The notes under the pieces were generated by a model. It saw only the letters and a list, made by a program, of their open reading frames with translations. It was not told the DNA's origin and searched no databases. Shown here piece after piece: positions 10,759 through 35,842 of a stretch of 47,475 bases of DNA. The stretch comes from Nitrososphaerales archaeon (lineage in GTDB: Archaea > Thermoproteota > Nitrososphaeria > Nitrososphaerales > Gagatemarchaeaceae). The stretch is taken from the NCBI GenBank assembly GCA_032906765.1, contig JAJTZB010000009.1, positions 1 through 47,475 of the forward strand. Direction: 5' to 3'. The first letter of the stretch is position 1. Every line of letters begins with the position of its first letter. A program made the translations under genes and the position numbers.

Positions 10759-11250
10759 ATGACGAGGGGTATGGCGCCACTGGTTGTGAGGAAGGTCGGA
10801 GAGAGGGGACTGGGAGTTGTTGCACAGGCTGAAATCGGCGCTGGGGAGGCCGTAGTCAGGTACGGAGGGAAGCCGAGGTGGATATGGGAGATTCCAAAGT
10901 GGTGCTGGGCGCACAGCTTTCAGGTCGACTACGACAGGTACGTCGTGCCTAGGGTCGGCTCCGCTGGATGGTGCATTAACCACTCCTGCGACCCCAACTG
11001 CTCAGTCAGTGGGGAGAGGGAAATCGTGGCCATCAGAGGCATCAGCAAAGGCGAGGAGCTGACGTTCGACTACTCCACCAACGTCGGCTGGGATGGGTTC
11101 GCGATGGAGTGCAGATGTGGCGAGAAGAACTGCAGGAAGATGATCAGGAGCTACGCAAGCCTCGCACCCGACCTGAAGAGGAAGTACCGGGGTCACGTTT
11201 CGCCCTTCCTCCTCAGGCAGCCGAAGAGGCAGAGGCCAACCCTCTTCTAG
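10759..11250 (+). CDS. SET-domain protein lysine methyltransferase
   Basis: A 163-residue protein that is essentially one SET domain. Motifs in order: ERGLGVVAQAEIGAGEAV (SAM-binding start), GWCINHSCDPNC with NHSCDPN at 74-80 (cofactor pocket and pseudoknot), GEELTFDYS at 98-106 with the catalytic Tyr105, and a post-SET zinc site Cys118-x-Cys120-x4-Cys125 that pairs with Cys77. It transfers methyl groups from SAM to lysine side chains. In archaea the substrates are chromatin or other abundant DNA-binding proteins in the few known cases; none is encoded nearby. The NUDIX gene follows within about 25 bases. Confidence 0.85.
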   Translation: MTRGMAPLVVRKVGERGLGVVAQAEIGAGEAVVRYGGKPRWIWEIPKWCWAHSFQVDYDRYVVPRVGSAGWCINHSCDPNCSVSGEREIVAIRGISKGEELTFDYSTNVGWDGFAMECRCGEKNCRKMIRSYASLAPDLKRKYRGHVSPFLLRQPKRQRPTLF

Positions 11251-11273: not shown

Positions 11274-11699
11274 TTGCCACACAGGGGAAAGAGGTACCCG
11301 GAGCCAACTGTGGGCGCACTGATACTCAACAAGAAAGGGGAGATGCTGCTGGTGAAGTCTCACAAGTGGGGCGACAGGCACACAATCGCAGGCGGGCACG
11401 TGGAGGTGGGCGAAACGCTGGCGGAAGCGCTCAAGCGTGAGATCAAGGAGGAGGTGGGCTTGGACGTCTCCAAGGTGAGGTTCCTCATGGTCCAAGAGGC
11501 AATCTTCAGCAAGGAATTCTGGAAGAAGAGGCACTTCATCTTCTTCGACTTCGTCTGCACGTGCAGGGAGGACAGGGTGGAGGTGGACGGCGATGAGATT
11601 CAGGACTTCACGTGGGTGAAACCGGGGAAGGCCCTGAGGCTCCGACTCGACACGTTCACGAGGCGGATGGTAAGGCGCTATCTCGCAGACCAGCGCTAG
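11274..11699 (+). CDS. NUDIX hydrolase
   Basis: The open frame extends upstream over the SET gene, but the NUDIX fold begins after the TTG at 11274, giving 141 residues. The full NUDIX box is present: GGHVEVGETLAEALKREIKE followed by EVG, matching G-x5-E-x7-REUxEExGU with all catalytic glutamates. The N-terminal strand is PTVGALILNKKGEMLLVKSH. It hydrolyses a nucleoside diphosphate linked to another group; the substrate cannot be told. It is probably co-transcribed with the SET gene; the start codon is uncertain. Confidence 0.8.
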   Translation: MPHRGKRYPEPTVGALILNKKGEMLLVKSHKWGDRHTIAGGHVEVGETLAEALKREIKEEVGLDVSKVRFLMVQEAIFSKEFWKKRHFIFFDFVCTCREDRVEVDGDEIQDFTWVKPGKALRLRLDTFTRRMVRRYLADQR

Positions 11700-12004
11700 A
11701 GGATGAAGGCGAGTAGGAGGAGGACTATGATGAAGGAGAAGCCAGCGACCATGGGGGCAGGGCCGAACCTGTTGTCCCTCTTGAGAGCCCTGTAGACGTA
11801 CGATACCATGGCGAAAGACACGAGGTTAACCGCCAAGTAGAGAGCGAACGCGGGCTCCGCGTTTGCACCCACTGGGTTGAGCGTCCAGAGGGAGTAGACG
11901 GAGAGGGCAGCGAGCAATAGGAGGACGGTCACAACCTGGATCGCGAGTCTTTCAAACGTCGCGCGCACATCCTCGTTCGCCGCGCCGCCGCTCAACCGGC
12001 CCAC
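11696..12004 (-). CDS. Small three-helix membrane protein of the cytochrome b operon
   Basis: A 102-residue protein with three hydrophobic segments (about residues 20-40, 50-72 and 82-102). The ATG at 12004 overlaps the end of the cytochrome b gene by 13 bases. No heme-ligand pattern or quinone motif is visible. It may be an accessory subunit of the Rieske/cytochrome b complex; that is inference from operon position. The last codons overlap the NUDIX stop on the other strand by four bases. Confidence 0.65.
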   Translation of the reverse strand: MGRLSGGAANEDVRATFERLAIQVVTVLLLLAALSVYSLWTLNPVGANAEPAFALYLAVNLVSFAMVSYVYRALKRDNRFGPAPMVAGFSFIIVLLLLAFIL

Positions 12005-13554
12005 CCCACCTCGAACGCCCTGACCCTCCTCCTGATTCTCCCGTTGGGGAGGTCCAGCCTGTAGAGCAGGTAGGCCGAGCCTACTGCGGAAGCGCAGATT
12101 CCGGAGAGCGCCACAGCGAGCGTGGAGAGGCCCGACGGCAGCGGGCCGGCGACCACAAGCCCAGCCAGGGCGTTGAACGCTGCGCCCATGCTGAAGGTAC
12201 CGACTGCCAGAAGCGCGACGAAGACACCCGCGGTCCAGATTGAGGCCGACCTGATGGATACCCGCGGGGAAGACGCTTGGGTGGCGGGTCCGCCCGGCGT
12301 GAAAGGCAGCGAGGCCCCCTGCCTATTCAGAGGTCTGAAGAGAATCCTGTAGGTGACGGCCGACCCGAGGGTGACAAGCAGGGCTGTGCCGCCCAGGATG
12401 ACCAGTGCCTGCTCGTCTGGAATCACCTTCCCTGGTGTGACGAAGCCCCAGATTGCGAGCACGGCCACCTCGGCGACGAAGATCGCGCCGAGCGTCACGT
12501 ACTTCGTCCTCCCCGCGATTGCCCTTGTCTTCCCCCTGTCGATGAATGGGAGCAAGAGGAGGACGATGAAAATGAGCGTAATGACAGAGAGCGCCACAGG
12601 AAGCCCCGCCTCCTCGAAGGCGGAGATCTTGAGAATCTGGTAGACCCAGAGGAAGTACCAGTCAGGCTGAGCGGTGTACTGCCCGGCCAGCGCGGCCGAG
12701 TACTCGGGCTGCAGAGTGAGCGGGAAGGCCACCGAGATTAGCAGCATTGCGGCACCGAAGAGAGCGGCAAGTTCGAACAAGTAGAAGGAGACGTCAGGGA
12801 AGATGGGTATCGGCCCCAACTTTGCGGGTGGGATCCTGCCCGGAGTCCCTGTCGCCGGCTCCGCGACGCCGTGCGTCTCCAGCATGTACATCTTCGCGCC
12901 CAGGAGGAGCAGGAGCGCTGCGGGGAGGACAACGACGTGCAGGTCGTAGAAGCGGAGCAGCTCTGCCGCGTCTCCGCCCACCCCGACGATCAGGAAGGTG
13001 AGGAATGAAGAGACGGGCGGGGGCAACGCCTGCACCATACCCAACCCCACGTCTGTGGCCGACTTCGAGACGATCGTCCATGGGAGGAGGTATCCAGTGA
13101 ATCCGAACCCGAGCGTGATGAACCCCATCAGCATCCCGACCACCCACATCGCCTCCCTCGGCTTCTTGTGGACTGAGACGAAGTAACCTCGCATGAGGTG
13201 CATGAAAGCCAGCATTATCATCGCATACGCGGTGTAGAGGTGGACGGTCTGGAGGAACGTCCCGTAGCTGACCTTCTGGAAGATGTAGAGGGTGCTCGGA
13301 TATGCCAGCGACGGACTGGGGACGTAGTACAGCATCATCATGATTCCGGTCACACCCTGGATGACGAAGGCGACCACAGCGAGGGCGCCAAGCCAGTAGA
13401 ACGGGTTTATCGAGTACTGCGGTGCTGGCCGGAACAGCTCGTACGAGAGCCCGAGTCTGGTGTCGAACCAGCGCGCGAGCCTCTCGAGCTTGCCCGGCTT
13501 TGGCTCCTCGTTCCCTTCCGCGAGAGAGGCTGATTCCTGTGACTCGCCCGCCAT
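11992..13554 (-). CDS. Cytochrome b (Rieske/cytochrome b complex)
   Basis: A 520-residue integral membrane protein of a bc/b6f-type quinol oxidase complex. Helix B carries His105 and His119 (13 residues between). Helix D carries His206, but the residue 15 positions later, where b6-type proteins have the fourth heme ligand, is Lys221. The Qo-site motif is PDWY at 297-300 (PEWY in most). GFTGYLLPW lies at 151-159. The C-terminal part adds at least four membrane helices beyond the b6 plus subunit-IV core. It lies four bases downstream of the Rieske gene, and both oxidise quinol together. About 40 N-terminal residues are soluble and Glu-rich. Confidence 0.9.
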   Translation of the reverse strand: MAGESQESASLAEGNEEPKPGKLERLARWFDTRLGLSYELFRPAPQYSINPFYWLGALAVVAFVIQGVTGIMMMLYYVPSPSLAYPSTLYIFQKVSYGTFLQTVHLYTAYAMIMLAFMHLMRGYFVSVHKKPREAMWVVGMLMGFITLGFGFTGYLLPWTIVSKSATDVGLGMVQALPPPVSSFLTFLIVGVGGDAAELLRFYDLHVVVLPAALLLLLGAKMYMLETHGVAEPATGTPGRIPPAKLGPIPIFPDVSFYLFELAALFGAAMLLISVAFPLTLQPEYSAALAGQYTAQPDWYFLWVYQILKISAFEEAGLPVALSVITLIFIVLLLLPFIDRGKTRAIAGRTKYVTLGAIFVAEVAVLAIWGFVTPGKVIPDEQALVILGGTALLVTLGSAVTYRILFRPLNRQGASLPFTPGGPATQASSPRVSIRSASIWTAGVFVALLAVGTFSMGAAFNALAGLVVAGPLPSGLSTLAVALSGICASAVGSAYLLYRLDLPNGRIRRRVRAFEVGWAG

Positions 13555-13558
13555 CTGG

Positions 13559-14275
13559 CTAGCTCACCAGCGTCCCGCCCTGGAGGTCGTAGAGCACGTC
13601 ATCGCTCCCAGTGTTGTGGCCGAAGATGGTCGGCGGCAGCATGCCGACTGCGTAGATGTTGCCACTTGACTCGTCGTATTCGAGCATCACCTGGGGGACT
13701 GGCCTCGGCGCTGGACCGGCGACCACATTCGCTCCGTTGACGAGGTCGAAGACGCTGCCGTGACAGCAACAGTAGCCCACGGGGCCAGACGCCTGGTAGG
13801 TCTGGTCGCATGAGGGAGATCTGCCCGCGGGCACGAACCCGTAGATGCAACCGAGATGCTGGCAGACCTGGCTGAATGCGACGATGTCGCCGTCGGGTCC
13901 CACGCCTCCCTTGGCCTTCTTGCCGAGCTTCGCCAGAAGGTTCGGAGTCTCCTGGAGCGGATAGTTGAAGCTGACTGTCTTGCCCCCGGCCAAGTCGCCG
14001 ACGTTCGCGGCCTTGACCCTCGGAAATGGCGAGGACGACACCGTGCCCGTCTGGCTTCCTGTGGAAGTGATGGTAGTCGGCTGTGGGGGCGGAGCCGCAG
14101 GGCTTAGCAGGGATCGCGTGATGGAGGCAATCCCGGCAGCTAACAAGACAACGCCGAATGCGAGCGCGACTCTGACGAAGTCCCTCCTGGAGGTTTTCTG
14201 CCTCAGGACCTCTTCGTCCATCGGGCGTCGGGCGTCTGGCTGTCCGCTTTCCTTCCCGTCCTCAGCAGGCGGCAT
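13559..14275 (-). CDS. Rieske iron-sulfur protein with Tat-type signal anchor
   Basis: A 238-residue protein. Residues 27-57 form a twin-arginine motif (SRRDFVRVAL) and membrane anchor, then a Pro/Thr/Ser linker. The Rieske [2Fe-2S] motifs are CQHLGC (138-143) and CCHGS (170-174), the latter preceded by another Cys169, so the usual Pro of CPCHGS is a cysteine. The cluster is bound by Cys138, His140, Cys169 and His172, with Cys143 and Cys171 as the usual disulfide pair. A long insertion (SPSCDQTYQASG) separates the motifs. It passes electrons from quinol at cytochrome b, encoded directly downstream. Confidence 0.9.
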   Translation of the reverse strand: MPPAEDGKESGQPDARRPMDEEVLRQKTSRRDFVRVALAFGVVLLAAGIASITRSLLSPAAPPPQPTTITSTGSQTGTVSSSPFPRVKAANVGDLAGGKTVSFNYPLQETPNLLAKLGKKAKGGVGPDGDIVAFSQVCQHLGCIYGFVPAGRSPSCDQTYQASGPVGYCCCHGSVFDLVNGANVVAGPAPRPVPQVMLEYDESSGNIYAVGMLPPTIFGHNTGSDDVLYDLQGGTLVS

Positions 14276-21043: not shown

Positions 21044-24000
21044 TCACTTCAGGCTGTCAACGACGTAGGACTCGTTGTTCTCTGTCTTCAGGAAGACCGG
21101 GACGTTCCTCTGCTTCGAAGCCTTGAATGAAACGAAGAGCCATTCGCCAGTCCCCAGGTCGGCCGAGCGCTCCAAGACCTCGTACGGGAGGGCGAAGGCG
21201 TCGGCTATCACCATTCTGTCGTACATCCTTGGGAGCGTGCTGACGAAGTAGCTGTGGAGCTGCTGGAGAGCGTTGACGTTCAGCCTCGCCACCCTCTGGG
21301 TGGCCATCCAGCAGTGGACCCTGTACTTCCTCCCCTGACGGAGCAGCTGCTCCACAGCGCGGTTCGACTGGGTTGTGAACTCCCTCTCCGTGTGCTCGTC
21401 AGGGATGTACTCCTGCGCCTCGTCGAGCACTACTAGGACACGCTGCTTGTTCCCGTGCTTCTTCTTCAAGAAGAGCAGGCGGCGGATGAGCCTCTCAGTG
21501 GCCTGCCTCGCCATCATCGGCTCCGGCAGGTAGAGAATATTCAGCTTGGCTCCAGCCCCCTTCGCCAGCCGCTCTGCCAGCCTCTCGGGGTTGAGCCTCG
21601 AGCTCGCCTGATCGCCTGAGGCCCCGGATTCGAGCATCTCTATTATGAGGTCGAGGTCTCCCTTCAACCCGGACATCTGGTGGACCTTCCCGCGCACGTC
21701 CGTCAGTTGCAATGCCAGCGCCTTCCTCGCCTCGTCGTCGAGGTCTGTGAGCTTCGCGCTCGGACGTAGGCTCCGCGTCTCGTAGAGCTCCAATGTGAAT
21801 GACGACAGCCCTATCTTCGCAGCCGTCCCTCCCGCCTTTCCGCTCTCCGCCGCGTTCTCGAGCAGCGTCTGTATCCAACCGAGGTCAATCCCACCTTCCT
21901 GACGGAGCGAGAGCCTCTCGACGCCACCCTTGTAGACCGCTGCGAGCGCGTCTTCTATCGCCTTCCTCCCGACAGAGTCCTCAAGGCTCTCCGGGATTGT
22001 CTGGGAGCTGACGAACTCCTCGGCTGAGTCGAAGATCTCAGTGCTGAGGACCTTGGCGTCCTTTCCGAGGAGGTCCAGAAGGTTGACGGTGTACTCGCCG
22101 GCGATGTCCAGAATCACTACGGTCAGGCTTGGGTCCCTGCTGAGCGCCCGCCGTATCAGCGAGCTCGAGAGGTTGCTCTTGCCTGAACCGGTGTTGTGGC
22201 AGAACACTCCGCCGAAACCTGCGAGAAAGCTCTCGTCCCCCGGCACGGACACGTCGTAGACGAATGGGGAGGTCGGAGCGACCTCCTCAATCGCTTCGAT
22301 TTCGTAGAACGTAAGTTCAGAGTCAACGAGGCGTCTGACGTATTCGAACTCGTGGTCAGCTTCCAGGAGAAGCTGCGTGACGGCAACTGCGTTTCCATTC
22401 TTCGTGAGGTACCTCTCAAAGCCTCTCCTGTAGACGCCGTCGTGTCTGGCTTCGTCTGCAGACTTGGGCAGGCCTTGATAGGATTCCAACCTCTCAATCC
22501 TGCCACCGACCTCTTCCAGCAATCTTCTCCCCACACGCAGTCCAGAACGTGCAACGTGGGATGGGTGTTGGAGCATCGAGTGTAATGACTTCGGGAGCTG
22601 AGTCGCAGGGAAGCTCGGCTCCGCCCTCCCTCTCCTGGGTCGCACTCTGTCGACCTGGAGTTCCCTGGCTCGCGGGAACCGAAGCTGGAATCGCGGGCGT
22701 GCATTGACTGGCCTCCCTTCGATGACCGTGCGCGTGTTGGGTAGCCATCTGCTGACCGTGGCTACAGTGCCTTCGAGCGAGAGCATGTACATCACGTCGT
22801 TCATCAGCGCTTGAGAAACGGTGACCCCGTAGTCCCCTAATGCCCACGCTTGTAGGAATGCCCTCCTGACCTCGACAGGCGAGTTCAGGACCACGAGCGG
22901 CACCCTCTTGTTAGCTGCGCCGTGACCGACAAGGCTCGAGAAGAGCCGAGCGAGAATCCTGTGGTTGAACGAGATGCGGATGGCGTTCTTCCCGTGCTTC
23001 GACGTTCTCGGCGCTATCCCGAACTTGTTGCTTAGGATGCGTCTGAGGTCCCTGACTATTTGCAGGTCAGTCCTGCTCAGGGTGAACTCGACCTTGTACG
23101 AGCATCGCGCTCTGATGCTGACATGTCCCTCGGCTGCGAAATAGCCTAGCAACTTCGCCAGGTCGGAATCGACCACGAGCCTTGTTGGCGTCGGCTGCCG
23201 GCATCCCTTGTAGCTAAGTCGCCCATTCTTTCGAGATTCCTCGCCCAACCTCTCCCAGTAGGTGAGCGGAAGCGCTCTGGAATGCCTCCATCGCGACCGC
23301 TTCCAACTCGGAATCCTCGAATCCAGGGCGCTGAACGCTTCCGGCTGGACACCGACCACTGAAATCCCCTCCCCATCCCCCTTGCAAATCTCCGCCAAGT
23401 CGCAAGTGATTGGTTGTGACTGCTCGGAGAGCAACGTCCTGCTCCCGACCAGCGAGTCGCCCACGCGAAGCTCATCGGACGGCAGGCATTGGATTCTCCC
23501 GTCTCTTAGCACGAAGAGCGAATGCCCTGGCGTTACGGTCACAGCTCTTCCAGTCCTGGCGCGAAACCTAAGCAGCTTGCCCTCGTAGCGATGCCTGAAG
23601 ACGTACTGGACAGGAGACCACTTGACGTCCATCGATTCTCGGTCGAAACTGAGGACCTCTACGGACGCTGTGTAGGCCCGGCCTTCCTTTGAGTCGACGA
23701 AGTGTCGGTCGACCAAGTCTCCGATTGGCTCAATGATCAGTTGACCGTCCTTTCTGTAGACGATCGGCTCGTAGTGGTCGAGGCTGAAGCCGAAGAAACC
23801 GCAGTGGTAACGAATCAGGTTGTCCATGCTGGCTGTGTAAGGGAGGTCGAACCCAGACATCCTTCCGATCTCCTCGCCCTGCTCCTCGCAGAGGAACTTC
23901 TCCACTGCTGACTTGGAGAGCAGAAACGCCCTTGCCCCGGGCAGTGGCACGTGAGGGGCCCTGGAAAACTCCAGGTCCTGACCAGACACCCTTGCCACGT

Positions 24001-24385
24001 AGAAGGTCGGAATGGCTGCGAGGTCGATCCACGTTTCCTGGGACTTGCCCCAGCTCTCCTTGATCGTGTCCAGGTACTCCTTCCTGAGGAGTGTGGGCAT
24101 CGAGGAGTCCACCCCTGAGAGCTGGTAGTGGGTTGGTGTTACCCCGACGACCTCGTAAATGACGTATCGCGTCTCACCGTCGACGTTCCTTTCTATTGCA
24201 GCGAAGCTCGGCGAGTAAAGCCTGTCGAGGACCTTGTAGCTGAAGCGAGCTTCAAGGATTGCCAGCGGGTTGGAGACTGTAAGCTCCCTGCCCTCGCTCT
24301 TGGATGTCCTGGTCGCGATTGTGGTGCGCTTGAGCCTCGCGTCGAACTCCCCGTCCATGTCGTCGAATGCACTGGACTGTGTCAA
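21044..24385 (-). CDS. herA: HerA-type DNA translocase ATPase, interrupted by an intein
   Basis: A 1113-residue precursor; start TTG whose last bases overlap the NurA stop (TTGA). Removing the 531-residue intein leaves 582 residues. The N-extein (1-200) is the beta-barrel region ending HCGFFGF; the C-extein begins TGSGKSN, so splicing rebuilds the Walker A loop GFTGSGKSN. Walker B is VLVVLDEAQEY near precursor residue 985. HerA forms a hexamer that translocates on DNA and feeds ends to the NurA nuclease encoded directly upstream, for end resection in recombination repair. Without splicing the ATPase could not bind ATP. Confidence 0.9.
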   Translation of the reverse strand: MTQSSAFDDMDGEFDARLKRTTIATRTSKSEGRELTVSNPLAILEARFSYKVLDRLYSPSFAAIERNVDGETRYVIYEVVGVTPTHYQLSGVDSSMPTLLRKEYLDTIKESWGKSQETWIDLAAIPTFYVARVSGQDLEFSRAPHVPLPGARAFLLSKSAVEKFLCEEQGEEIGRMSGFDLPYTASMDNLIRYHCGFFGFSLDHYEPIVYRKDGQLIIEPIGDLVDRHFVDSKEGRAYTASVEVLSFDRESMDVKWSPVQYVFRHRYEGKLLRFRARTGRAVTVTPGHSLFVLRDGRIQCLPSDELRVGDSLVGSRTLLSEQSQPITCDLAEICKGDGEGISVVGVQPEAFSALDSRIPSWKRSRWRHSRALPLTYWERLGEESRKNGRLSYKGCRQPTPTRLVVDSDLAKLLGYFAAEGHVSIRARCSYKVEFTLSRTDLQIVRDLRRILSNKFGIAPRTSKHGKNAIRISFNHRILARLFSSLVGHGAANKRVPLVVLNSPVEVRRAFLQAWALGDYGVTVSQALMNDVMYMLSLEGTVATVSRWLPNTRTVIEGRPVNARPRFQLRFPRARELQVDRVRPRRGRAEPSFPATQLPKSLHSMLQHPSHVARSGLRVGRRLLEEVGGRIERLESYQGLPKSADEARHDGVYRRGFERYLTKNGNAVAVTQLLLEADHEFEYVRRLVDSELTFYEIEAIEEVAPTSPFVYDVSVPGDESFLAGFGGVFCHNTGSGKSNLSSSLIRRALSRDPSLTVVILDIAGEYTVNLLDLLGKDAKVLSTEIFDSAEEFVSSQTIPESLEDSVGRKAIEDALAAVYKGGVERLSLRQEGGIDLGWIQTLLENAAESGKAGGTAAKIGLSSFTLELYETRSLRPSAKLTDLDDEARKALALQLTDVRGKVHQMSGLKGDLDLIIEMLESGASGDQASSRLNPERLAERLAKGAGAKLNILYLPEPMMARQATERLIRRLLFLKKKHGNKQRVLVVLDEAQEYIPDEHTEREFTTQSNRAVEQLLRQGRKYRVHCWMATQRVARLNVNALQQLHSYFVSTLPRMYDRMVIADAFALPYEVLERSADLGTGEWLFVSFKASKQRNVPVFLKTENNESYVVDSLK
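22193..23785 (-). mobile_element. Intein in HerA (LAGLIDADG type, Ser1/Thr+1)
   Basis: 531 residues, precursor 201-731. It starts SLDHYEPIVYRKDG (Ser1 nucleophile) and contains block B VTVTPGHSLFVL. The LAGLIDADG helices are KLLGYFAAEG (411-420) and FLQAWALGDYG (510-520), the second being diverged. It ends FVYDVSVPGDESFLAGFGG, then VFCHN, followed by Thr+1. The C-terminal His-Asn and the Thr+1 nucleophile are intact, so splicing is expected. Family resemblance is to archaeal DNA-polymerase-type inteins. The insertion site is inside the P-loop of HerA. Confidence 0.9.
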
Positions 24386-33166: not shown

Positions 33167-35818
33167 TTAGTTAGCCACGTCGAGAGGTTTGAACTTCTCC
33201 ACTGTCTCTAGGAGCTCGCGCGCCAGCCGCCCCTTCCATTCCTCGAACCCCTTGGGGGATTCCGGGTAGCGTAGGTTCACGCCCACCAACGCGGCGCTCT
33301 TCTCCACTGTGTACCTGAGGCCCCTCGCGAGGGAGAACTGGGCTAGGACCCTGAACCACATCGCGGGGCTCATCAGCCGGGCCCTGTTGAACTCAGGATG
33401 CTTCCTTTCTGTGATTGCAGCTACGTCATCCTCGGAGAGGAAGTGCTTCATTCCGTAGTTGATCTCCTCGTTAGTGACGGTCTGCAGGTACCTCCTGAGG
33501 ACCTCGAAGCTCGCCATCGGGTACCCGTGCGTGTTCATGTACTCGACGTTGTACTTCCAGAGCGAGCCCTCGCTCGTGTCACCCGATTCCACGGCCTCGG
33601 CCACGACCTTGCCCAGGATCGTCCCCCCGTAAATCGAGGGGCTGATGCCGCCAGCGTCTATTGGGCGCGGCATCCACGCAGCGTCGCCAACGATCGCGAA
33701 GCCGTTCGCGACCATGCAATCGTTGTGCCTGCGGACCGGAACCTGCCAGTTCCCCTTCGTGTTGCCAGAGTCTGCTTCGCTCGTCGGCTGTCTCGGCTTC
33801 TTGACGACTGGGTTGTCAGCGACGTACTTGTCGATGAGGGTCTGCAGGTTGTCGTTAAGCCCAAACCTCCTGTTCCGTCTGTCGAGCCCAGACTTTGAGA
33901 CGCCGAGTCCGATGTTCACCTTCGTCCTGCCCTTCGGGAAGACCCAACAGTTGTGGACGTTGAACAGGGGAGTGAAGTCTCCGCCCGTATTCAAGTCAAA
34001 GACTGGACCGCTGTACTCGCTCCTCTCCAGCTTGCTGATTCCTAGATAGACCCTTCCATCACCCAGCACGAAACCCCTGTTTTGCTTTCTCCTACTTCGC
34101 AGGAGTTCCTCACCGAGGAAGCCTGCTTGATGACCAAAGACAGTGACCGCCCATGCGTTCTTCACCTTGTTCCTCTTGATCGAGGCGATGACCTCCAATC
34201 CAGCAAGAAGAAGCCAGAGATCGATAGAAAGCACCCTGGAAGCTGTCGAGTAGGAACGCGCGTCTGACCTGCCGCCCCTCTGGTGTTCGATGCTGCCGTC
34301 TCCGAAGTAGAGACCTTTCAGGAAGGCCAGTTTGCTTGTCTTCGAAATCTCGTGTATCCATGAGGGGAGCTTCTTGTTCCTGGCTCCCCTGCCGAAATTT
34401 TGTTCCATGACCTTCGCTAGGAGAGAGTTAGTGATGTCAATGTTGTAGCAAGGCAGGCTCCGTTCCTTCCTGAGATTCTTCCAGACCGAGGTGTTGAAAC
34501 CGAGCGCCTTCGTAAGGTTGAGAATGCGTTCGATGTAATTCCTGTTGGTGTTCGAGATTGTAACGTGGTTCTTCCTGATCGAGCCTTCGGAGACGTACCA
34601 GCCGCAGAGCTCCATGAAGTTCTCGTCTAGCTTGACCTTGGTGGGCATACGGGTCCGCTTGGGGTGTTTCGCCAGGGTAATCTGCCTGAGATAGGTCCCG
34701 TCAGGTCCGCGGCCGTTGAAGAACGAGCGTCTGATTGTCACGTAAACGAAGCCGTCCTCGACCAGTCCACTGACGTACTGCAAAACGTCGAGCTCCAGCA
34801 GTGGGCTCTTCGCGGCGGTGGGCAGGGGAACGACCAGGTAATCCCCACCTCTATGACTCCCACTGACACTCCTGATTAGCTCGTCGGCGCGCTTCCATAT
34901 TTCTCCAGTTCTGGGGTTCCACACTCGCACCAAGTGCTCAGGAGTCAGCCTGATCTCCTGGTTCAGCATGTAAGGCGTTACGGCGACGAGAAGTCCTGAA
35001 TAGTTCCGCCTGCTAGTGGCAGAGACTGGCATCCAACCCTCAGAAGTAAGTACCTCGTCTCCCATCTTAACGTCCACTATGGCCTTCAAACTGTTCTTGC
35101 AGACTATCGGCGTGTCGGGGGCGACGCAATAGCCAGCCGGTGCCCTGAACTGGTCTAGGTGTATGATGCAGTAGTCGGGCGAGAAGTATGACGGCTCGTC
35201 CGCGGCCGGGTCGAAGTCGAGTATGTACCTCCCTGTCCCGACAACGTCGTCCCCGTCAATCTCCTTCTCAATCATGGAGGGGATTGGGAGAAAGCGTCTC
35301 AGCACGGACGAAGAACCTGTTGCGTCGATGACAACCTTTGCGGTGACGCTGAATGTCGACCCGTCAGCCTTCCTTCCCGAGACGCCGATGATGTAACCGT
35401 TCTCCGAGAGGAGCCTCTCTGCTGTCGCTCCGAACATGAACTCTGTGCCGAACTTCTTCGCGTCGTTGACCTGACGCCTCGGGGCGAGCTTCCTGTTGAA
35501 GAGGTACCCTTCGCCCTCGAAGAGGACCTTCGTCTTCCTGTCGGGCGAGTAGACGTAGACTCCCTTGACTGGGTGCTCGAGCTCTGGGGACCCGTACCTG
35601 ATGCCGATGTGGTCCGCCAGGTAGTCGAGGCTCCTCTTGCTCGTGGCGTCGCCGCACGTCCAGCCGTTGTGAGTCTTCTTGCCCGGCTCGGTCTCCGGGT
35701 TCCTGTCGATCACCAGCACGCGTGCTTTGCCCTTGGAGTGGTAGCCGATGGACGCGGCTGTGATGAGGCCTGCCATCCCACCGCCAGCGATGACCACGTC
35801 GTAATCCCTGGGAGACAT
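33167..35818 (-). CDS. Geranylgeranyl reductase family flavoprotein, interrupted by an intein
   Basis: Start ATG at 35818 was chosen for its spacing to a TATA box at 35843-35849. The 883-residue precursor minus a 393-residue intein gives 490 residues. The FAD motif is DVVIAGGGMAGLITAASIGY; the extein junction restores PAGYCWVFPKG, the family's conserved GYxWxFPK motif. A later GFAIVGDAAWMPRPIDAGG supplies the second FAD motif. The enzyme reduces isoprenoid double bonds of archaeal lipids or related compounds at the membrane. A second, shorter relative lies at 46363-47385. Confidence 0.9.
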   Translation of the reverse strand: MSPRDYDVVIAGGGMAGLITAASIGYHSKGKARVLVIDRNPETEPGKKTHNGWTCGDATSKRSLDYLADHIGIRYGSPELEHPVKGVYVYSPDRKTKVLFEGEGYLFNRKLAPRRQVNDAKKFGTEFMFGATAERLLSENGYIIGVSGRKADGSTFSVTAKVVIDATGSSSVLRRFLPIPSMIEKEIDGDDVVGTGRYILDFDPAADEPSYFSPDYCIIHLDQFRAPAGYCVAPDTPIVCKNSLKAIVDVKMGDEVLTSEGWMPVSATSRRNYSGLLVAVTPYMLNQEIRLTPEHLVRVWNPRTGEIWKRADELIRSVSGSHRGGDYLVVPLPTAAKSPLLELDVLQYVSGLVEDGFVYVTIRRSFFNGRGPDGTYLRQITLAKHPKRTRMPTKVKLDENFMELCGWYVSEGSIRKNHVTISNTNRNYIERILNLTKALGFNTSVWKNLRKERSLPCYNIDITNSLLAKVMEQNFGRGARNKKLPSWIHEISKTSKLAFLKGLYFGDGSIEHQRGGRSDARSYSTASRVLSIDLWLLLAGLEVIASIKRNKVKNAWAVTVFGHQAGFLGEELLRSRRKQNRGFVLGDGRVYLGISKLERSEYSGPVFDLNTGGDFTPLFNVHNCWVFPKGRTKVNIGLGVSKSGLDRRNRRFGLNDNLQTLIDKYVADNPVVKKPRQPTSEADSGNTKGNWQVPVRRHNDCMVANGFAIVGDAAWMPRPIDAGGISPSIYGGTILGKVVAEAVESGDTSEGSLWKYNVEYMNTHGYPMASFEVLRRYLQTVTNEEINYGMKHFLSEDDVAAITERKHPEFNRARLMSPAMWFRVLAQFSLARGLRYTVEKSAALVGVNLRYPESPKGFEEWKGRLARELLETVEKFKPLDVAN
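33950..35128 (-). mobile_element. Intein in the geranylgeranyl reductase (LAGLIDADG type, Cys1/Cys+1)
   Basis: 393 residues (231-623 of the precursor from 35818). It begins CVAPDTPIVCKNSL, with block B EIRLTPEHLVRV. LAGLIDADG helices are ELCGWYVSEGS (about 405-413) and FLKGLYFGDGS (about 499-509), with acidic residues intact. It ends EYSGPVFDLNTGGDF, then NVHN, followed by Cys+1. All splicing residues are present. Sequence blocks resemble those of the NuoB intein (both CV-x-PDT starts and EYSG-x-V ends), more than the HerA intein. Confidence 0.9.
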
Positions 35819-35842
35819 TAGTTGCCAATGCAACTAAAATCC

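Follow-up and report, generated by a model that had tools for sequence, protein, structure and literature searches.

The cytochrome b gene and its neighbours

The window, by which we mean the whole 47,475-nucleotide stretch of DNA analysed here, carries a cytochrome b gene whose open reading frame (ORF; 13554..11992, minus strand) translates without interruption into a protein of 520 amino acids. The genes of this cluster, and the residues of the cytochrome b at the heme ligand positions, are as follows. "Lys-type" and "His-type" denote cytochromes b with lysine or histidine, respectively, at the position of residue 221.

13559..14275, minus strand: Rieske iron-sulfur subunit (238 aa), whose gene immediately precedes that of the cytochrome b and runs in the same direction; Pfam Rieske 4.5e-06
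11992..13554, minus strand: Lys-type cytochrome b (520 aa), with a fused b6 plus subunit IV-like architecture (PF00033, PF00032)
13240..13242, minus strand: His105, helix B ligand of heme bL; invariant
13198..13200, minus strand: His119, helix B ligand of heme bH; invariant in all Lys-types; the proposed partner of Lys221
12937..12939, minus strand: His206, helix D ligand of heme bL; unchanged across both Lys-type and His-type sequences
12892..12894, minus strand: codon AAG, Lys221, at the helix D ligand position of heme bH
11696..12004, minus strand: ORF for a small membrane protein (102 aa), which overlaps the cytochrome b gene at the latter's 3′ end; no Pfam match

The cytochrome b passes the Pfam cut-offs for Cytochrome_B (PF00033, 1.1e-30), PF13631 (2.6e-30) and Cytochrom_B_C (PF00032, 3.1e-10). 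Residues 19-410 were modelled with AlphaFold2 from 119 sequences and without heme; the model has a pLDDT of 95.9 and a pTM of 0.92, and its Foldseek matches are bc1 cytochromes b in the Protein Data Bank, including that of Rhodobacter capsulatus (1zrt). The four heme-packing glycines (G56, G70, G140 and G154) are present, as are a Qo motif of the PEWY/PDWY kind (QPDWY, residues 296-300) and a linked Rieske 2Fe-2S protein (ORF 13559-14275). In place of the four ligand histidines, the protein has three histidines and a lysine. It is a variant of the Rieske/cytochrome b family and not a canonical bis-His member, while its other tested features are those of the family.

In the alignment with solved cytochrome b6 chains, which covers residues 25-233, helix D is free of gaps, and Lys221 falls on the heme bH-ligand histidine of cytochrome b6. 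Codon 221 sits within LLLLLGAKMYML, and the spacing from His206 to Lys221 is 15 residues, which is b6-like. An earlier note on this DNA had read the AAG at 12892-12894 as Lys221, had assigned H105, H119 and H206 as the remaining ligands with the lysine 15 residues past H206, and had concluded that the fourth heme-ligand histidine is missing. Translation and the alignment to the b6 chains agree with it on each count, and the b6 histidine column is occupied by lysine. The same note allowed that a better alignment might place a histidine at the ligand site; we checked and found none, as the lysine stays on the b6 histidine, and no other histidine was found between H206 and H228 of the window protein. 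Given the ORF and codon check, the b6 alignment, the Pfam matches and a confident model that matches known structures, the observation of Lys221 is correct. It is neither an error nor a one-off.

The Rieske subunit also matches TIGR02694 (1.2e-25) and soxL2 (5.4e-20), both below cut-off, and its translation carries the motif CxHLGC ... CCCHG, while the 102-residue ORF is a possible small subunit. The pairing with a Rieske gene is usual, with such a gene immediately upstream in 54 of the 62 Lys-type loci that have enough flanking sequence. In a Marsarchaeota record, the gene order is a fused COX1-COX3, a small ORF, a cupredoxin, a further ORF, COX2, Rieske and the Lys-type cytochrome b; this oxidase-operon order suggests that the Lys-type protein there plausibly serves aerobic respiration. 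In an apparently complete genome (G557, L185:2926-4293), the Lys-type cytochrome b lies beside EB_dh (CbsA-like) and Rieske genes. The window genome has a COX1 gene elsewhere, consistent with the aerobic respiration reported in Gagatemarchaeaceae (PMC10640624).

Other genes of the window were also annotated. A HerA-like helicase ORF (21044-24385, minus strand, 1113 aa) is split by an intein that carries a LAGLIDADG endonuclease domain. A geranylgeranyl reductase-like FAD protein (33167-35833, minus strand, 888 aa) also matches LAGLIDADG and homing endonuclease domains, and therefore probably holds a second intein. At 10759-11250 (plus strand) lies a small archaeal SET-domain protein of 163 aa (PF00856, 1e-12).

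Conservation of the lysine and of the heme pocket

Relatives of the cytochrome b were searched for in 61 relatives, in 300 genomes of the class and 398 of the phylum, in 243 genomes from the phylum of a Thermoplasmata genome and in 229 genomes of another class, together with a named scan of GTDB genomes. A large sample of the cytochromes b gathered in this way was retrieved and read at the ligand column, which holds only lysine or histidine: with duplicates removed, 66 distinct sequences have lysine and 113 have histidine. All 66 Lys-types have the 15-residue helix D spacing, and the lysine is encoded by AAG in 53 and by AAA in 14 of 67 distinct ORFs. Between H206 and K221, this lysine is the only charged residue in helix D of the Lys-types. 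Its presence in all 66 sequences, its two codons and its standing as the sole charged residue in that stretch of helix rule out chance.

We also looked for other candidate ligands. No other conserved ligand-capable residue occurs at positions +8 to +15 of helix D in the 66 Lys-types. A histidine one register off, at the +14 position of bc1-type spacing, was rejected because +14 is L, V, G, A or I in Lys-types and never histidine. H228 was likewise rejected as a substitute; at +22 it is too far along the helix, and it occurs in His-types too. Reading the sequence for a covalently bound heme of the ci type, we saw no cysteine where helix A would need one. Among the His-types, the helix D ligand spacing is 14 (bc1-like) in 47 of 113 and 15 (b6-like) in the others, and the examples read with 14-residue spacing, from Sulfolobales and other loci (for instance L146, L147 and L173), do not have Leu-Pro after the first ligand.

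The Lys-types fall into about ten family-level groups of Thermoproteota, four of them within the class (f1, f9, f20 and f22) and six elsewhere in the phylum (f25, f32, f33, f35, f68 and f88). Records that carry the names Ca. Marsarchaeota G1 and Ca. Geocrenenecus dongiae contain them as well, and the window's own Lys-type family includes Ca. Gagatemarchaeum stordalenia, judging by the near-matching coordinates of G013 and G655. The window genome encodes four cytochromes b, namely the window copy, a second Lys-type that is 47% identical to it and has its own Rieske gene, and two His-types, one of which is of the type found in ammonia-oxidizing archaea (AOA-type). The earlier note had asked whether the lysine is shared in the clade. 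Across a broad archaeal clade it is the norm. The case is the stronger for this, since the lysine is then not peculiar to the window gene; a search of the literature for a statement that lysine is standard in this clade found none. The lysine is not general to archaeal cytochromes b, because AOA-type, SoxC-type and Thermoplasmatota proteins, in all those read except one (L079), keep the histidine. The bacterial cytochromes b read, sampled only through 24 bacterial loci of the GTDB scan, all have histidine.

Two Lys-type records stand apart. The exception just mentioned (L079, JAJYKG010000082.1) is a short, low-coverage contig labelled Thermoplasmata with a Gagatemarchaeaceae-like Lys-type cytochrome b, and it is probably mis-binned. 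At L100:6039-7498 (JASHNZ010000105.1; G654:C65:11015-12211), a second Lys-type copy is broken by several stops and lies ~10 kb from an intact Lys-type cytochrome b.

Across 65 Lys-types, H105, H119 and H206 are invariant, as are G56, G70 and G154. Four further positions of the heme pocket bear on the state of heme bH:

13189..13191, minus strand: Arg122 (H119+3), in 63/65 Lys-types; we take it to be the equivalent of the bH-propionate arginine, bovine R100
13147..13149, minus strand: Met136, on the same face of the helix, one turn ahead of Gly140; in 97% of 65 Lys-types and ~11% of His-types
13135..13137, minus strand: Gly140, helix C, packing on heme bH; in 64/65 Lys-types and 113/113 His-types
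13123..13125, minus strand: Gly144, also on helix C, a turn away from Gly140 and on the side of heme bH; in 65/65 Lys-types and 17/113 His-types

The heme pocket of the Lys-types is intact. As the three histidines, the packing glycines and R122 are kept, two hemes are probably still packed in these proteins. The difference at Gly144 and Met136 hints at an adapted helix C pocket, which is only suggestive because shared ancestry explains most of the covariation. In a separate lineage represented by L180 and L188, Gly144 is present and Met136 is replaced by leucine.

Coordination of heme bH and origin of the lysine

A direct precedent for the substitution comes from an engineered protein. In the bc1 complex of R. 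capsulatus, H212K is the same change of histidine to lysine; the heme is low-spin (gz 3.22/3.15), and the midpoint potential of bH rises from 80 to 130 mV, an increase of 50 mV (Pintscher et al., 2016; PMC4807273). Turnover was 121 per second compared to 149, and the strain grew photosynthetically (PMC4807273). We hold, with good confidence, that the window encodes part of an archaeal Rieske/cytochrome b complex in which heme bH would be held by His119 and Lys221. The strict conservation of the lysine, the retention of H119 and the packing residues, and the H212K precedent make ligation by Lys221 well supported by comparison. To this extent the suggestion of the earlier note, that the lysine may ligate the heme and shift its potential, has gained ground.

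The cytochrome b would then be part of a complex III-like, quinol-oxidising complex. Quinol is predicted to be oxidised at the Qo site formed around QPDWY, with one electron passing to the Rieske protein. The other electron would cross the membrane from heme bL (His105/His206) to heme bH (His119/Lys221) and on to the Qi site. Heme bH, on the quinone-reduction side, would thus have one ligand from helix B, His119, and one from helix D, Lys221, in place of two histidines. We infer a bond between the lysine Nζ and the heme iron, and, by analogy with H212K, a bH that would stay low-spin and functional at a raised midpoint potential.

Against this assignment, a buried lysine could be protonated and non-ligating, and the covariation of Gly144 and Met136 is largely shared ancestry. 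Heme bH might instead be five-coordinate, bound by His119 only, with the charged Lys221 on the distal side, where it would stabilise a quinone intermediate, a hydroxide or a heme propionate; such a heme would be high-spin and accessible to substrate, somewhat like heme ci of b6f. The strict conservation of the lysine speaks for this arrangement, Gly144 opens space on the bH side, and the conserved Glu226 (+20) and His228 (+22) could make a polar network on the Qi side. However, Thermoplasmatota and some Sulfolobales have an E-x-H-G helix end together with a normal histidine, and an uncoordinated lysine buried in a hydrophobic helix would be costly. The engineered change of histidine to lysine at this position, with no other change, moreover gave a six-coordinate low-spin heme (PMC4807273), and we regard a five-coordinate bH as unlikely.

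The absence of the canonical ligand might also mean that heme bH has been lost and that Lys221 fills the empty pocket of a one-heme protein, as the earlier note had offered as its second branch. This is disfavoured and, in our judgement, highly improbable: H119, G56, G140 and R122 would otherwise be free to drift, but they are kept in essentially all 65 Lys-types across family-level divergence, and residue 221 is never other than lysine or histidine. A sixth ligand could come from elsewhere, such as Met136 of helix C or a residue of the Rieske anchor or the small subunit, with Lys221 structural. While Met136 is near-invariant in Lys-types and rare in His-types, it is leucine in the separate L180/L188 lineage. 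In known cytochromes b, helix C runs along the edge of the heme and does not supply axial residues. We regard a different sixth ligand as very unlikely. The chance that a sequencing error, a misalignment or a pseudogene lies behind Lys221 is practically nil, being refuted by the lysine in 66 distinct sequences from many independent assemblies.

The maximum-likelihood trees need two changes between lysine and histidine, and lysine may have been the ancestral state, with some archaeal lineages reverting later. Holding together all Lys-types except L180/L188 is not rejected (p-AU 0.427), and one origin plus the L180/L188 lineage is therefore acceptable. L180:173-1393 (G409) and L188:683-1963 (G577) form a very divergent second Lys-type lineage of ~400 aa, which is Thermoproteus-like, and in G409 a Rieske gene lies upstream of the Lys-type cytochrome b. 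In this lineage the lysine ligand may have arisen independently. Overall, we lean towards a natural, ancient and widespread His-Lys transmembrane heme bH that was probably acquired more than once (separately in L180/L188), with a raised bH potential and a helix C pocket adapted through Gly144.

Relation to known cytochromes b

Two histidine ligands on each of the b hemes count as a defining trait of cytochrome b. A natural Met or Lys heme ligand in an integral membrane protein was unreported as of Pintscher et al. (2016), who expected natural cases (PMC4807273). In the open-access literature we found no report of natural lysine ligation, only the engineered mutant, although a mention in a subscription journal is possible. 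The Lys-type family is a concrete candidate for the predicted natural case, with many sequences and at least one apparently from the complete genome of a cultured organism. If the assignment is true, the Q cycle can run in the long term with non-bis-His ligation, and the Lys-types make the degree of bH potential tuning directly testable, as a natural experiment on Q-cycle energetics.

The closest comparison within the same genome is the AOA-type (Nitrososphaerales) cytochrome b (L004), which belongs to the same fold family and has its own Rieske ORF beside it, but has four histidines and is ~31% identical to the window protein. Among NCBIfam models, the window protein matches SoxC (NF041076) best (1.7e-53), at 182.3 bits against a curated equivalog cut-off of 740. 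In the Sulfolobales systems of the SoxC/SoxN/SoxG type, archaeal Rieske and cytochrome b genes likewise lie close to genes for an oxidase or an EB_dh (CbsA-like) protein. True SoxC proteins (L146 and L170, above the cut-off), unlike the window protein, have four histidines and 14-residue spacing.

With the cytochromes b6 and b of the b6f and bc1 complexes (PF00033, PF00032), the window protein shares the fold, the ligand positions on helices B and D, the four heme glycines, the PDWY/PEWY Qo motif and the Rieske partner, and its 15-residue helix D spacing is b6-like. It differs from them in having lysine for the helix D bH-ligand histidine, and no gene for cytochrome c1 or f was seen beside the window gene. 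The engineered H212K protein (PMC4807273) has the same ligand position, the same substitution and the same helix B histidine. The window protein, with lysine at the helix D bH position and the helix B histidine kept, carries the sequence signature of such a case and probably contains a natural His-Lys transmembrane heme b. Whereas H212K is a product of the laboratory, where it first turned up as a revertant of H212N, the lysine of the window protein is natural, conserved and widespread.
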